Positions 22,714 through 32,196 of a stretch of 64,000 nucleotides of DNA are shown piece by piece. How positions within the stretch are numbered: position 1 is the first letter of the stretch; every line of letters starts with the position of its first letter. Made by a program: the position numbers and the translations under genes. Location: positions 35,627 to 99,626 of the forward strand of contig NZ_WGNY01000041.1 in NCBI RefSeq assembly GCF_016124325.1, given 5' to 3'. The stretch is from Phenylobacterium sp. (GTDB taxonomy: Bacteria; Pseudomonadota; Alphaproteobacteria; Caulobacterales; Caulobacteraceae). The notes beneath the pieces are model-generated. The model worked only from the letters and a program-made list of their open reading frames with translations. It had not been told where the DNA came from and made no database searches.

Positions 22714-23691
22714 ATGAACCTGAAGGACAGGATCAAGGCCCGGGTCCTGGCCTTCGACGCCGCCGCGCGGCCCTGGGCGGCGCGCGGGCCGCTGCACGCC
22801 TTCGCCTACGAGTTCCTGCTGTTCGGGCTGAAGCAGGCCTGGGCCTGCCTGTTCGGCGGGACGCTGGTGGCGCTGCTGATCGCCACCCGCCTCTTCTGGC
22901 CGCCCGACGCCCCGCTCGCCCGCTACGACCTGCTGGTCCTCTGCGCCGTGGCCCTCCAGGCCGGCCTGCTCGCCACCCGGCTGGAACACTGGGACGAGGC
23001 CCTGGTCATCGCCGTCTTCCACCTCGTCGGCACCGCCATGGAGGTGTTCAAGACCGCCCACGGCTCGTGGATCTACCCGGAGCACAGCCTGCTTCGCATC
23101 GGCGGCGTGCCGCTGTTCTCGGGCTTCATGTACGCCGCCATCGGCTCGTACCTGGCCCGCGCCTGGCGGCTGTTCGAGCTGCGCTTCGAACGCTACCCCC
23201 CGGTCTGGACCACCTGGGCCCTGGCCATCGCCGCCTACGTCAACTTCTTCGCCCACCACTACGTCATGGACGTGCGCCTCGCCCTCTTCGCCGCCTCGTT
23301 CCTGATGTTCGCCCGCGCCAGCTTCGTCTTCACGCCCGACCGCACGCCCCGGCGGATGCCCATGCTGCTGGGCTTCCTGCTGGTCGCGGTCTTCATCTGG
23401 ATCGCCGAGAACGTCGGCACCTTCACCGCCGCCTGGCGCTACCCCAGCCAGCACGACGGCTGGCGCCTCGTCCCGCTGGGCAAGCTGGGCGCCTGGTACC
23501 TGCTGATGCTGCTCAGCTTCGTCCTGGTCTCGGCCGTCCGCCGCCCCCGGCCGCCGGGGGAGGGCGAGGCCACCAATCCGCTGACGGCGCCGCGCCCTGG
23601 CGGGCCGTCCCACCCGCGCGAGCCGCCCCAGTCGCGCGCTCAGTCGCGCGCCTCGCGCTCCAGCTCCCCGGTCGCCGGGTTGCGCAGATAG
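22714..23691 (+). CDS. DUF817 family membrane protein
   Basis: [61 protein letters not shown]. Confidence 0.85.
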
Positions 23692-24419
23692 GCCACCACC
23701 TTCGTCGTTCCGTCGGCCTGGGTCTCGCGGCGGAACTCGCGCATCTGGAAGATCACCTGCGTCGGCCCCCGCGCGCCCGCGGCCCCCGCCGCCTCGGCCT
23801 CCAGCGGCCGCACGCGCCCGAACCGGGCCGGCGCCAGCGCCGCCGCCGTCCAGCGCAACTGCGACAGCTTCACGTGGGTGGCGTAGGCGTCCTTCGGCGT
23901 GATCCGCTGGGCGATCTCCCAGCCCAGGTCGCACATCCGCTCGGCCTGCGCCTGGCGCGCCAGCTCCAGGTCGGCGGCGAACTCGGGCCGCGCCGAACGC
24001 CACTTGTGCACCAGCGACAGCGACGGCATGTCCGGGTCGGCGCAGATGGCGCTCATCGTCTGGCCGTCGGCGATCCGCGAGCAGACCTCGGCCGCCAGGT
24101 GCGGACACCAGCGCGGCTTCCGCCCGCCCTCGCCGTGCCACCCCGCCGCGCGCCTCGCCCGCCCCATCGCCTCGGCGAAGGCCGGCAGGGTCCGGGCCCA
24201 GGCCTGCACGCTCGACCGGTTCGGCATGGCCGCGTCGCGGCAGATCGCGCGCAGCGTCTCGCCCGCCTCCAGCCGCGCGCAGACCCGCCGCGCCACCACC
24301 GCCGAGAACCGCACCGCGTTCGCCGGCCCGCCCAGCCGCCGGATCCTCGCTTGAGCCGGCCGCCGCTGCGCCGCCCGCTCCCCGTCTGGCCGCGCAGCCA
24401 CGCTCCGTCCCTCGCCCAT
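23640..24419 (-). CDS. Terminase small subunit-like (Sf6-type HTH) protein
   Basis: Two tandem HTH-like units: VCARLEAGETLRAICRDAAMPNRSSVQAWARTLPAFAEAMGRAR and VCSRIADGQTMSAICADPDMPSLSLVHKWRSARPEFAADLELAR. Confidence 0.7.
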   Translation of the reverse strand: MGEGRSVAARPDGERAAQRRPAQARIRRLGGPANAVRFSAVVARRVCARLEAGETLRAICRDAAMPNRSSVQAWARTLPAFAEAMGRARRAAGWHGEGGRKPRWCPHLAAEVCSRIADGQTMSAICADPDMPSLSLVHKWRSARPEFAADLELARQAQAERMCDLGWEIAQRITPKDAYATHVKLSQLRWTAAALAPARFGRVRPLEAEAAGAAGARGPTQVIFQMREFRRETQADGTTKVVAYLRNPATGELEREARD

Positions 24420-24553
24420 GGACGCCCTCCGCTCGGATTGTCTGGAATGGAATTTCTGGAATGGAAAAGGGCCCGGCGCAGACCGCCGGACCCTGACCAA
24501 AACCCTACCAGAACCCCGCGCCCCGCGCAAGAACAAAATAGGAACCAACCCGC

Positions 24554-24580
24554 TCATCCCGGCGAAGGCCGGGACCCAGA
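24554..24580 (+). repeat. Short dispersed palindrome, copy R5 (same family, shortened)
   Basis: catcccggcgaaggccgggacccaga. Confidence 0.5.
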
Positions 24581-26311: not shown

Positions 26312-28225
26312 TTGACCCGGATCATCGCTCTCGCCACCGCCTGGGGCTCGGCGCATGGCGGGATCAACGCGTTCAACACCGATCTCTGCGTCGGGCTCGC
26401 CCAGGAACTGGGGGACGCCGGCAAAGTCTATTGCGCGGTTATCGCGGGCGAGGGCAAGGCGGGCGAGGACGAGTTCAGGCTCGCGTACGAGGACGCCGCG
26501 CGGCAGGGCGTGACCCTGGTGCCGATCACGCGTCCCGACCGCGGCCAGGCGTTCGATCCCAGCTGGGCGCGCGAGGTCGCGGCCTGGCTCGAAGCGCATG
26601 GGGCCGAGGGCCATCCGAGCTACTGGATCGGCCACGATGTGAAGTCCGGCGAGGCGGCGCTGTTGGGCGCCCAGCTCACCAATGGCTCGGCCGCCCTGGT
26701 GGGCCACATGGCCTATCTGCTTTACGGCGGCCACAAGCGCGACGACGCCACGACCAAGCAGCATCAGGACCAGATGCGCACGTTCCGGAGCCGCGCTCAC
26801 GTGTTCGCCGTCGGTCCGCTGCTGCGAGATTGGCTCAGTGAAAGGCTCGATCGGCCGGTGACCATGCTGGTGCCGGGCTTCCCCACCCGGACCGAGCGGC
26901 CGCGGGCGCGGCGACGCCTCGCCGGCATCACCTTCGGCCGCCTGGGCGTCGACGACGACCGGATCAAGCAGGGCCGGCTCGCGGTGCTCGGCTTCGCCAA
27001 CGCGATCAAGGTGCTCTCCCTGACCCCGACGCACGCCGACCTGGTCAACGGCCACTTCTTCATCATGCTCGGCGTGGACAACGCGCGTCCCCAGGTGGAG
27101 GACCTCAAGCGGCGGGCGTTCGTCGAGGCCGGCCGTTCGGTGAACATGTTTGCCGAGCCCTATCAGATGGTCCGGCGCGACGTGTTCGACCGTGTCGCCG
27201 GCGCCAGTTTCGCGATGATGCTCTCGGTTCACGAAGGCTTCGGCCTCACCGCCTGGGAAGCGATCGGGCTCGGCGTGCCGGTGATCCTGTCGCGCAACAG
27301 TGGCGTTTTCCAGCTGCTCCAGGAGGCCGGCAGCGCTGCGGCTTCACGGGTTCGGGACATCAATGTACAGGGCCCTGGCGACGCGAGCGGGGAAAACCAC
27401 ACGCGATCCGATATCGAAGCCGTCTCCCGTGAGATCCAGGGGATCGCGCTCGACTTCGAACGCGCGTATCAAGACGCAGGCGAGCTCTACGGAATCCTCC
27501 AACAGAGGTACGGATGCACGTGGTCGGGAACCGCCCGGGCCCTGCTGGACGCGATGGCGGACGCGAGCCTGGCCGAGCCGAACCCCGAGCCGAATCCCGA
27601 GCCGGGCCGGCCGCCGTCGAGTTCCGGGCAGGCCCGCGGCCGCGACGCCGCGGTCGTCGCGGAGCGTCCCTGGAACGCCCATGCGGACCTCCTGGAGCTT
27701 GGCTTGAGCATCATGCAGGGGAGTGATCGGAGCCGCTTCGATCTAATGCCCGAGTTGCGGTGCACCGTGCTGTCTTTCCCGATGAGCGGCGAGCGCCAGG
27801 CGCGTATCGGCCTCACCGGTGTTCGCGTCAGCGTCCGGTGCGACGGGTCTGTGGAGATACTTCCGGGCAATCGTCTCGGAGACGATGGCGGGGCAAGCGA
27901 CGTGGTGGCGTGGTCCGGCGGTCGCTGGGACATCAGTGGTCCATGCGAGGAAGGCTTCCTGGCGCATCGTGTGCTGGGCCGGGACCGTCTGTGCGAGCTC
28001 GGCGCGCGTGACCACTTGCCAGGCGACGCAGCGGTCGAGGTCACCGCGGCGAAGGCCGAATTGGATGTCCGGCTATATGACCGGGATGGGCGGCGGCTGG
28101 CCCTGCCCGACGACACCCAGGCCGCACTGGGGCTCGTTCTCGGAAAGGGCCTGGGCGGAGGAAGCCGAATCCAGCTCGCCCGCGCGGGCGTGTCGGTAAA
28201 GGGAGCAGATGATGGTCCTGCCTGA
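26312..28225 (+). CDS. GT-B-like glycosyltransferase-type protein with uncharacterised beta-rich C-terminal region
   Basis: IIALATAWGSAHGGINAFNTDLCVGLAQEL N-term; SVHEGFGLTAWEAIGLGVPVILSRNSGVFQLLQEAGSAA typical GT4 C-terminal motif; EPNPEPNPEPGRP linker. Confidence 0.75.
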   Translation: MTRIIALATAWGSAHGGINAFNTDLCVGLAQELGDAGKVYCAVIAGEGKAGEDEFRLAYEDAARQGVTLVPITRPDRGQAFDPSWAREVAAWLEAHGAEGHPSYWIGHDVKSGEAALLGAQLTNGSAALVGHMAYLLYGGHKRDDATTKQHQDQMRTFRSRAHVFAVGPLLRDWLSERLDRPVTMLVPGFPTRTERPRARRRLAGITFGRLGVDDDRIKQGRLAVLGFANAIKVLSLTPTHADLVNGHFFIMLGVDNARPQVEDLKRRAFVEAGRSVNMFAEPYQMVRRDVFDRVAGASFAMMLSVHEGFGLTAWEAIGLGVPVILSRNSGVFQLLQEAGSAAASRVRDINVQGPGDASGENHTRSDIEAVSREIQGIALDFERAYQDAGELYGILQQRYGCTWSGTARALLDAMADASLAEPNPEPNPEPGRPPSSSGQARGRDAAVVAERPWNAHADLLELGLSIMQGSDRSRFDLMPELRCTVLSFPMSGERQARIGLTGVRVSVRCDGSVEILPGNRLGDDGGASDVVAWSGGRWDISGPCEEGFLAHRVLGRDRLCELGARDHLPGDAAVEVTAAKAELDVRLYDRDGRRLALPDDTQAALGLVLGKGLGGGSRIQLARAGVSVKGADDGPA

Positions 28226-29081
28226 GAAGACGCTGTCGGCCATGGAGGCCATCCTGAGGGCCGGCCCGGCCGACTTCATGACTCTGTGCCGCATCGCCGA
28301 CATCGATCCGCGCGTGGATTTCGCCCACGCCAACCTGCGGAACGTGGACTTCCGCGGCGGCGATCTGACGGGTTGCGACTTCACGGGGGCCGATCTCGAG
28401 AACGCTGACTTTTCCCGCGCGCGACTGGTCGATTGCCGGTTCGTCGGCGCCAACCTCAGGGCGGCGCGGCTTCTGGAGCGGGCGTTGCGGGAGAACGAGT
28501 TCGACGGGAACGCCGACGAAGACGTGCAGGTCGTCGCCCCGCCTGGCATCAGCGACCTGGGCCGCCTCAACCCAGACCTGCTGTTGGGCGAATGGGTGAC
28601 CTTTCCCCGCGAAGGTCGCGGCCGGATTCACGCCATCGAAAACCGCCCGATCGGCAACGATGAGATCAAGGTGCTGATCATAAAGCTCGAAAGCGGCGAC
28701 CCCGACCTGCCGCTCCCGCTGGCCCGCGCCGATGAGATGGGTCTCAAACGCATCGCCGCCCCGCCGGATCGGCTCGAGGATGCGCTGGCGGAGCTCGGCC
28801 GGCCGCCGCTCGGACCCGTCGACGCCACGGTGCTCGAGGATGTTCGTTCGAGGCTGACCTCTTCCGACCTGCTGGACATGGCCGTGGCGGTGCGGATGCT
28901 CTCCGGCCCGCCCGCGCGACCGATCCTCGCGGGCATGGTCGAGAAGCTGCTCGGGGTGGTGCTTGAACGGCTGGAACAGCTCGTCGCTCACCGGGCGGGC
29001 CTGGAGCAATCCGTCGCCCGTGGCCTCATCGAACGCCGGCGCCGAGGCGGCCGCGACGACGCGCCCACCGCCGGCCGGTAG
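28209..29081 (+). CDS. Pentapeptide-repeat protein fused to a CarD-like RNAP-binding domain
   Basis: DFAHANLRNVDFRGGDLTGCDFTGADLENADFSRARLVDCRFVGANL then LLLGEWVTFPREGRGRIHAIENRPIG...DLPLPLARADEMGLKRI and LTSSDLLDMAVAVRMLSG; overlaps 26312-28225 ORF by 17 nt. Confidence 0.72.
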   Translation: MMVLPEKTLSAMEAILRAGPADFMTLCRIADIDPRVDFAHANLRNVDFRGGDLTGCDFTGADLENADFSRARLVDCRFVGANLRAARLLERALRENEFDGNADEDVQVVAPPGISDLGRLNPDLLLGEWVTFPREGRGRIHAIENRPIGNDEIKVLIIKLESGDPDLPLPLARADEMGLKRIAAPPDRLEDALAELGRPPLGPVDATVLEDVRSRLTSSDLLDMAVAVRMLSGPPARPILAGMVEKLLGVVLERLEQLVAHRAGLEQSVARGLIERRRRGGRDDAPTAGR

Positions 29082-29394: not shown

Positions 29395-32196
29395 GTGACT
29401 CTCCCCCCGCAGACTCAGCAGCTTTCCCTCGCCCCGGCGCTGGTGGTGCTTCCCGGGCCGCGCTGCGCCATCGCGCCGCCGCAGGGGCCGGCGCAGCTCG
29501 TCCGGCCGCCCGACGCGCGCGACCTCTTTGAGACCGCCCCGGTGCTGGTGGCGCACGCGGCCATGACGGCGCGGCGCCTGGGACTCAACGCCCCGCCGCG
29601 GGGCCCGCGCCTGTTCGACGTGCTGGAGCTGTTCGCCTTCGTCCGCCCCGCGCGCTTCTGCGCCCCCTCGGCGGCGGGGCTGGCCCAGGCGCTGGGCCTG
29701 GCCGAGCCCCACGGCCCGGCCGAACAGGCCGCGGTGCTGCGCGAGGCCGCCGCCGCCCTGCTGGACGAGCTGGCGGCTGCGCCCACGCCCAGCCGCGAGG
29801 AGGCCCTGGCGGTGGCCGAGACGCTGGCGCGCGGCGGCTGGGCCTGGGGCGTCCCCGTGCTGGGCGCCCTGCGTTCGGCGCCGGCGGGTAACCAGTTCCG
29901 CTCCTCGGGCCTCGACGTCTGGACCCGCATCGCCGAGTGGGAGGCCGAGGCCCCCGTGGGCGAGCCGGGCGGCAAGCCGCTGGCGCCCGGCGAGGCCGAG
30001 CGGCGCCTCGCCTCGCTCCTGCAGACCGCCGGCCTCGACGAGGCGCGGCCCGCCCAGCGCGACTACGCCGCCGAGGCCGCCTACGTCTTCCAGCCGCGCG
30101 ACCACGAGGGCGAGCCCAACATGATGCTGGCCGAGGCCGGCACCGGCGTCGGCAAGACCCTGGGCTACCTCGCGCCCGCCTCGCTGTGGGCCGAGCTGAA
30201 CGGCCCGGCCGTCTGGGTCTCCACCTACACCCGCGCGCTCCAGCGCCAGATCGAGCGCGAGAGCCGCGCCGTCTGGCCCGACGACAAGGTCCGGGCCAGG
30301 AAGGCGGTGGTGAGGAAGGGGCGCGAGAACTACCTGTGCCTCCTGAACTTCCAGGACTTGGCCAACGCCGCCCAGCTTGGCGGGGCCGACCTGGTGGGCA
30401 TAGGGCTGGCGGCGCGCTGGGCTCGGGCCAGCCGCGACGGCGACATGACCGGCGGCGACTTCCCGGCCTGGCTGCCGGCCCTGTTCGCCGTCTCGCCGGC
30501 GGCCCAGGCCAGCCCCGCCAACCTCGTCGACCGGCGCGGCGAATGCGTCCACGCCGGCTGTCCGCACTACCGGGCCTGCTTCGTGGAGAAGGCGATCCGG
30601 GGGAGCCGGCGCGCCGACATCGTCATCGCCAACCACGCCCTGGTGCTGAGCCAGGCGGCGTTCGACGGGGCGCGGGCGGCGCGCGGCAGCAAGGGCGATG
30701 CGGAGACCACCCAGCTGCGCCGCATCGTCTTCGACGAGGGCCACCACCTGTTCGACGCGGCCGACAACGCCTTTTCCGCCGCCCTGTCGGGGCAGGAGGC
30801 GGCCGAGCTGCGCCGCTGGATCCGCGGGCCCGAGGGGCGCGGGCGGCGCGGGCGGGGCTTGGAAGCCCGGTTGAGCGACCTGCTGGGCGACCGCGAGGAG
30901 GCGCGCGGCGCCCTGGGCGCGGCGCTGTCGGCGGCGGCGGCGCTGCCGGGCGAGGGCTGGAGCGGCCGCATCGCTCCGCCGAACGGGGAGGTGCGCCCGG
31001 TGGGCGAGGTCGAGGCCTTCCTGGTGGCGGTGCTGGAGCAGCTGCGCGCCCGCGCGGCGCCGTCGGAGGTGGGCATGGAGTGCGCGGCCCGCCCGGCGCT
31101 GGACCTCGTGCGCGAGACCGCGCGGGCGGCGGCGGCGGCGCTGGCCCGGGTCGAGGCGCCGCTGCTGGCCCTGGCGCGCGCCCTGGAGGACGTCTTAGAC
31201 GTTGAATCTGAACATCTTTCCGGATCGGAGCGGGCCCGGATCGAAGGCGCCCTGCGGGGCCTCGACCGCCGCGCCCGGATGCAGCTGCCCGCCTGGCGCT
31301 CGATGCTGGCCGCCATCGACGAGGACGCCGAGGACGACCCCGACTTCGTCGACTGGTTCGACGCCAGCTTCATGTTCGGCCGCGTCGTCGACGCCGCCTG
31401 CCGCCGCCACTGGGTGGACCCCACCGAGCCCCTGACGAACGCCGTCATCGCCCCGGCGCACGGCGTGCTGGTCACCTCGGCGACGCTGGCCGACCCCACG
31501 CTGGACGACCCCTTCGCCCTGGCCGAGATGCGCACCGGCGCCGCCCGCCTGCCCGACCGCCCGAAGACGCTGAAGCTGGCCTCGCCGTTCGATTACGCCG
31601 CCCAGTCCCGCGCCTTCGTGGTCACCGACGTCTCCCGCGACGACCCGCGCCAGGTGGCGGCCGCCATGCGCGAGCTGTTCCTGGCGGCGGGGGGCGGGGG
31701 CCTGGGTCTGTTCACCGCCATCCGCCGGCTGCGGGCGGTGCACGAGCGGATCGCCGCGCCGCTCGCCGACAAGGGCCTGGCGCTCTACGCCCAGCACGTC
31801 GACCCGCTGGAGGTGGGCGCGCTGGTCGACATCTTCCGCGCCGAGGCCGACGCCTGCCTGCTGGGCACTGACGCGGTCCGGGACGGCGTCGACGTGCCGG
31901 GCCGCTCGCTCCGGCTGCTGGTGTTCGATCGCGTGCCCTGGCCCCGGCCCGACATCCTGCACAAGGCCCGCCGCGCCCGCTTCGGGAACAAGAGCTACGA
32001 CGACGCCATCGCCCGCGCCCGCATCGCCCAGGCGTTCGGGCGTCTGATCCGCCGCGCCGAGGACAAGGGCTGCTTCGTCATGCTGGACGCCAGCTCACCC
32101 ACCCGCCTGTTCTCGGGCCTGCCCGAGGGCGTGGAGCTCCAGCGCGTGACGCTGGTGGAGGCCATCGAGGCCGTCGGCGAGTTCCTGATCCGATAG
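29395..32196 (+). CDS. DinG/XPD-like ATP-dependent DNA helicase
   Basis: AEAGTGVGKTLGYLAPA (Walker A), FDEGHHLFDAAD (DEGH), CVHAGCPHYRACFVEKA Fe-S-type Cys cluster, GTDAVRDGVDVPGRSLRLLVFDRVPWPRPD. Confidence 0.92.
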   Translation: MTLPPQTQQLSLAPALVVLPGPRCAIAPPQGPAQLVRPPDARDLFETAPVLVAHAAMTARRLGLNAPPRGPRLFDVLELFAFVRPARFCAPSAAGLAQALGLAEPHGPAEQAAVLREAAAALLDELAAAPTPSREEALAVAETLARGGWAWGVPVLGALRSAPAGNQFRSSGLDVWTRIAEWEAEAPVGEPGGKPLAPGEAERRLASLLQTAGLDEARPAQRDYAAEAAYVFQPRDHEGEPNMMLAEAGTGVGKTLGYLAPASLWAELNGPAVWVSTYTRALQRQIERESRAVWPDDKVRARKAVVRKGRENYLCLLNFQDLANAAQLGGADLVGIGLAARWARASRDGDMTGGDFPAWLPALFAVSPAAQASPANLVDRRGECVHAGCPHYRACFVEKAIRGSRRADIVIANHALVLSQAAFDGARAARGSKGDAETTQLRRIVFDEGHHLFDAADNAFSAALSGQEAAELRRWIRGPEGRGRRGRGLEARLSDLLGDREEARGALGAALSAAAALPGEGWSGRIAPPNGEVRPVGEVEAFLVAVLEQLRARAAPSEVGMECAARPALDLVRETARAAAAALARVEAPLLALARALEDVLDVESEHLSGSERARIEGALRGLDRRARMQLPAWRSMLAAIDEDAEDDPDFVDWFDASFMFGRVVDAACRRHWVDPTEPLTNAVIAPAHGVLVTSATLADPTLDDPFALAEMRTGAARLPDRPKTLKLASPFDYAAQSRAFVVTDVSRDDPRQVAAAMRELFLAAGGGGLGLFTAIRRLRAVHERIAAPLADKGLALYAQHVDPLEVGALVDIFRAEADACLLGTDAVRDGVDVPGRSLRLLVFDRVPWPRPDILHKARRARFGNKSYDDAIARARIAQAFGRLIRRAEDKGCFVMLDASSPTRLFSGLPEGVELQRVTLVEAIEAVGEFLIR

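Follow-up and report, generated by a model that had tools for sequence, protein, structure and literature searches.

Kaur et al. (2021) predicted, on computational grounds, that a family of GT4 glycosyltransferases acts as an effector in conflict systems (PMC8195603), and our literature search retrieved no experimental report of GT4 domains as conflict effectors. The same account also describes, for another conflict system using GT4 effectors, a GreA/B-C module that associates with RNA polymerase (RNAP). A further point of comparison is provided by the CdnL/CarD factors: in Caulobacter CdnL, mutation of V39 or P54 lowers binding to RNAP-β, whereas mutation of R52 does not, and residues W90, R92, R93, Y127 and R130 form a solvent-exposed basic/hydrophobic patch and bubble wedge (PMC5324124).

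Here, we analysed two overlapping genes, ORF1 and ORF2, in a stretch of 64,000 nucleotides from Phenylobacterium sp. (contig NZ_WGNY01000041.1), hereafter the window. An earlier note on this DNA had proposed a nucleotide-sugar-dependent modifier accompanied by a transcription-targeting partner. The conflict-type GT4 effector of this proposal stood, ORF1 carrying a GT4-conflict domain (PF20706) with its active site; an established two-gene operon with a transcription-targeting partner is a plausible proposal built on one occurrence.

ORF1 has in common with the GT4-conflict family, as presented by Kaur et al. (PMC8195603), a full-length domain, the HGGIN and EX7E motifs, a sporadic distribution and a modular C-terminus. 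It differs in its orphan C-terminus and in that no STAND, TPR, MoxR-vWA, CATRA or AP-GTPase module was found on its chain or among the eight neighbours scanned, while an ORF2-type partner was found neither in the available part of that account nor beside any homologue here. The GreA/B-C - TPR - PIN systems, in the description of which GT4 is named (PMC8195603), offer a parallel in concept, namely a conflict protein that docks on RNAP; here, however, the RNAP-type domain is CarD/CdnL-like and belongs to a second protein, which also bears pentapeptide repeats, and Pfam detected no GreA/B-C, TPR or PIN domain in ORF1 or ORF2. With the CdnL/CarD factors, ORF2 shares the RNAP-interacting module, the equivalents of V39 and P54 and the helical region after it, but it has lost the equivalents of W90, R92, R93 and R130 and is fused behind pentapeptide repeats. 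Azospirillum griseum likewise has a short GT4 protein whose gene overlaps the one after it (locus L117: GT4, MoxR-type AAA and FGE-domain protein); its C-terminal module and partner genes are unrelated to those of the ORF1-ORF2 pair. Finally, the pentapeptide coil of ORF2 resembles by sequence the DNA mimics Qnr and MfpA, whose pentapeptide segments span about 180-220 aa; the ORF2 repeats are shorter, about 65 aa, and there is no evidence for gyrase targeting by ORF2. The ORF1 architecture and the ORF2 partner were found nowhere else in this search.

The two genes and their products

Both reading frames and the 17-nt overlap reported in the earlier note were confirmed on the sequence (Table 1). 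An AGGGAG sequence lies within ORF1, just 5' of the ORF2 ATG codons at 28209 and 28212, which makes translational coupling from ORF1 to ORF2 likely, as had been suggested. GC content at codon position 2 is the lowest throughout both genes and supports one reading frame each; since this minimum is kept in the ORF1 frame, the odd C-terminus of ORF1 is not an obvious frameshift. The reading of this region as a frameshift or remnant was rejected on the codon-position pattern and on a six-frame comparison with the homologue loci, which came back empty.

Table 1. Features of the gene pair, in coordinates of the window
Feature	Position	Strand	Details
ORF1	26312..28225	+	TTG start, 637 aa, stop TGA 28223-28225
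GT4-conflict domain of ORF1, aa 6-411	26327..27544	+	PF20706; EX7E E308/E316, donor-site R210 and K219, GHD 107-109, H132
C-terminal ~225 aa of ORF1 (aa ~412-637)	27545..28222	+	Pro/Glu-rich linker aa ~420-445, then region without detectable relatives
AGGGAG, resembling a ribosome-binding site, plus the 17-nt overlap of the two ORFs	28199..28225	+	Read from sequence; overlap 28209-28225
ORF2	28209..29081	+	ATG start, 290 aa; helical N-terminus, pentapeptide repeats, CarD/CdnL-like domain
Pentapeptide-repeat segment of ORF2, aa ~36-100	28314..28508	+	About 13 repeats; PF00805 E 1.8e-14; designed and natural pentapeptide structures matched
CarD/CdnL-like segment of ORF2, aa ~126-264	28584..29000	+	RNAP-interacting (RID) module with V155, P170

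The N-terminal part of ORF1 scores 223.8 bits (E 4.7e-66) on PF20706 (‘Family 4 Glycosyltransferase in conflict systems’), whose cut-off is 26, and the match spans the whole model (profile positions 2-385 of 385). The cut-off of 26 bits is loose, firing in 14/14 control genomes and also on ordinary GT4 enzymes; a class-wide PF20706 search is hence uninformative and a single match near the cut-off does not mean a conflict GT4. The ORF1 score is about 3 times that of the best other match in the class sample, and general glycosyltransferase models gave only about 22 bits (Pfam) and 25.5 bits or less (NCBIfam). The signature ATAWGSAHGGINAFNTDLC is present at aa 8-26, together with the HGGIN and EX7E motifs. 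Its attribution in the earlier note to the GT4-like domain of STAND/TPR-type conflict proteins was supported by the PF20706 match, by matches in 39/39 scanned relatives and by the STAND NTPases or TPRs that many of these carry.

In GT4 enzymes, EX7E and R/K constitute the catalytic and donor residues. R210, K219 and E308 are found in 39/39 aligned family members and E316 in 38/39, while GHD and H132 are invariant in the 39 aligned GT4-conflict members. With these residues intact in ORF1 and near-invariant in the GT4-conflict family to which it belongs, ORF1 looks like an active enzyme, and its assignment as a putative conflict-type effector is well supported by homology. A PADLOC-DB 2023 search limited to the ORF1 and ORF2 proteins returned 0 families at E<=1.

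The C-terminus of ORF1 had no match in Pfam, in solved structures or among the C-termini of the homologues, and forms a group with no other member when the latter are clustered by single linkage. Single-sequence AlphaFold predictions gave a pLDDT of 40 for this region and of 44 for ORF2, with no confident structure.

ORF2 had been described in the earlier note as a pentapeptide-CarD protein. Its pentapeptide part is certain (PF00805); its second half appears to be CarD/CdnL-like, by a homology that is weak, real but divergent. The CarD part lies below the Pfam cut-off (13.2 vs 23 bits) and matches solved CarD chains with E-values of 4.6e-4 to 7e-4 and CdnL-type genes of relatives at about 1e-5 to 4e-8; a same-order CdnL profile scores 27.5 bits on ORF2, vs at most 4.9 for 1000 shuffles. 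Under four alignment settings, V155 and P170 correspond to CdnL V39 and P54, and the positions of W90, R92, R93 and R130 are occupied by D205, T207, V208 and E245; equivalents of R52 and Y127 are also missing. ORF2 would thus keep the RNAP-β contact residues and shed the DNA/bubble residues, a pattern that is suggestive, not proof, as it concerns two residues in a region of 23-25% identity. Given the loss of the W90/R92/R93/R130 equivalents, we classify ORF2 as CarD-like rather than CdnL. Nor is it the housekeeping copy, since the genome encodes a separate intact CdnL (L183; G000 contig 55, 96904-97377).

Homologues, partners and genomic setting

A genome scan with the single ORF1 protein as query detected no relative. 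Three plasmid relatives of ORF1 were found, and with a search alignment built from the first plasmid relatives, scanning 85,462 species genomes yielded 66 ORF1-type loci, of which 64 were treated as real. Most homologues are proteins of 1000-1900 aa with TPR, STAND, AAA_16, NACHT or HEAT matches C-terminal to GT4; in some of them (L082, L092, L109) the GT4 domain is itself C-terminal, behind another region. Single linkage sorts the C-termini of the homologues into 14 groups, among which the one of STAND/TPR type is the largest (n=35). The nearest relative and closest good GT4 relative (L117, 41%) is the short A. griseum protein, whose gene shares 4 nt with another that encodes an AAA domain of the ‘MoxR-vWA-beta-propeller’ type. 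In the tree, the ORF1 GT4 domain sits on a long branch and groups with L074, L117, L076 and L085 with a support of 93/85, below the strict mark; these four are mainly alphaproteobacterial and differ among themselves in the region after GT4. The genes coupled downstream of homologues also vary, including a Schlafen-AlbA_2 type (four Geobacterales-type loci), a MoxR-type AAA (L117) and a GTP cyclohydrolase II (L078), which is the pattern of varied partners described for GT4 effectors by Kaur et al. (PMC8195603).

Several of these loci are of interest in their own right. The Geobacterales-type loci (L099:7986-13321, L103:7986-13333, L113:7986- and L128:542-) contain a repeated unit of two genes that share 4 nt, one for a GT4 protein of ~1300-1400 aa and the other for a 470-aa protein, which in L099 carries Schlafen AlbA_2 and RecG-type C-terminal domains; this operon is better conserved than the ORF1-ORF2 pair. 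An apparent effector swap links L117 (7974-14659) and L118 (1-3543), where a common C-terminal module is borne by GT4 and by a calcineurin-like phosphoesterase, respectively; a MoxR-type AAA gene comes next in both, and L117 also has an FGE-sulfatase-domain gene. Rhizobium proteins of ~1313-1381 aa (L072, 4980-8918; also L119, L132 and L134) include a plasmid-encoded combination of GT4 with B12-binding and radical-SAM domains (L072), families matched by 4/39 members of the GT4 alignment (A2). In Pedobacter, a GT4-TPR protein (L078:7929-10757) is followed by the GTP cyclohydrolase II gene at a 0 nt gap.

The co-conservation expected of the two genes was not borne out in the samples searched. 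No relative of ORF2 was found by tblastn, phmmer or six-frame comparison in the three plasmid loci or in the 64 loci of homologues, 48 of which include sequence downstream, and full-length ORF2 was absent from the class-wide sample (384 other genomes), the partly overlapping phylum-wide sample (398 others), the phage collection and plasmids. The pair is thus a single case, seen once in everything searched, and the functional unity of the operon rests on the 17-nt overlap. A phage or prophage origin of the pair was considered and rejected: ORF1 had no relatives in the phage collection or viral contigs, and viral contigs matched ORF2 only in its pentapeptide segment (41% over aa 35-98).

The surroundings of the homologues were surveyed through 86 flanking proteins. 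The 25 most frequent of the 170 Pfam families matched include no sugar-pathway or polysaccharide family, so that the homologues do not lie consistently in polysaccharide loci; the absence of sugar-pathway genes near ORF1, remarked upon in the earlier note, likewise held among the eight neighbours scanned. Defence-type proteins occur among the 86 (JetC, MzaA twice, PtuA, PD-T4-6 and a mad6-like protein), plain counts that speak only against a polysaccharide-locus setting.

The pair was probably gained by horizontal transfer at a variable site beside a conserved helicase, a history consistent with its low GC3, its absence from relatives and the variability of the site. GC3 is 0.83 and 0.85 for the two genes, compared with values that mostly fall at 0.91-0.98 for the clearest genes nearby, and 100 other genomes of the genus contain no ORF1 relative at E<=1e-15. 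To the right of the pair lies a DinG-like helicase gene (29395-32196), present in 56/59 other same-genus genomes sampled; past it synteny is often kept, and its left side is variable. The pair is absent in the 12 relatives examined at this site; in two of these, a PIN-domain gene together with a transposase was recognised there by eye instead. No convincing tRNA, RNA family, promoter-like site or long repeat at element ends was found. The variable site of the window also holds a phage terminase-small-subunit-like gene (23640-24557, minus strand; Sf6 type, E 1.3e-34); two relatives, L174 and L179, have related genes close to the same DinG-like helicase. The segment 24618-26300 contains an orphan frame of 288 aa that matches no family and adjoins a stretch of lower GC (59-61% vs 70%) just upstream of ORF1, possibly acquired DNA.

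Possible functions of the pair

We put at roughly 40% the probability that ORF1 is a conflict effector and ORF2 its RNAP-tethering partner. ORF1, for which homology and active site are established, would act in the cytoplasm when the cell responds to an invader, transferring a sugar from an NDP-sugar to its putative target. ORF2 would hold the glycosyltransferase on RNAP, as suggested by its retention of the CdnL polymerase-contact residues and loss of the DNA/bubble-wedge ones; the precedent of GreA/B-C for RNAP-associated conflict proteins (PMC8195603) makes such a tether reasonable. Most relatives carry a STAND NTPase and a TPR/HEAT sensor on the same chain, where ORF1 has a short orphan C-terminus and a coupled partner; this C-terminus and the pentapeptide coil may be the joining or sensing surfaces. 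The modified target might be RNAP or something bound to it, such as a transcription factor of the invader, a sigma region, or else the enzyme itself. Transcription would thereby be stopped in the infected cell. An ‘RNAP-targeting two-gene system’ is, however, something we infer from a single case. A more far-reaching reading, which we consider unlikely, makes the pair a new conflict system of two genes: a pentapeptide-CarD adaptor that kept polymerase binding and shed DNA binding would deliver the GT4 effector to RNAP, and transcription would be glycosylated or blocked during invasion.

It is quite conceivable, if on the doubtful side, that the two genes do not belong together: ORF1 could be an effector, stand-alone or remnant, that has become separated from its sensor module, and ORF2 an unrelated overlapping cargo gene, their pairing being meaningless. 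The lack of co-conservation in the 48 homologue loci with downstream sequence, an ORF1 C-terminus unlike that of all relatives and the variability of the site upstream of the helicase in the genus all favour this explanation, whereas the open frames with coding-like codon-position patterns and the ribosome-site-like sequence for ORF2 inside ORF1 speak against it, and the fully kept active site argues against decay.

The same variable position and the overlap of two co-directional genes would also suit a toxin-antitoxin-like pair, in which ORF1 would glycosylate an essential host target and ORF2 would restrain it, either by binding it or by repressing the operon in a manner linked to RNAP; the prediction of GT4 domains as effectors (PMC8195603) agrees with a toxin role. 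ORF2, however, lacks the CdnL DNA-contact residues, which makes autorepression through DNA unlikely, as well as any known antitoxin fold, and a toxin-first order is the less usual one, so that we hold this arrangement improbable. We give still less credence to ORF1 being an ordinary GT4 enzyme that glycosylates envelope components or metabolites, with ORF2 incidental: general GT4 motifs are present and metabolic GT4 models give weak matches, but PF20706 reaches 224 bits vs about 22 for general Pfam and 25.5 or less for NCBIfam models, neither the scanned neighbours nor the homologue loci point to sugar or polysaccharide pathways, and no ORF1 relative was found in 100 other genomes of the genus.

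A conflict effector ORF1 tethered to RNAP by ORF2, if real, would mean that immunity docked on RNAP makes use of the CarD fold in addition to GreA/B-C. As a short, STAND-free GT4 protein with a partner that points to the RNAP β lobe, ORF1 would offer a direct test of what GT4 effectors modify.
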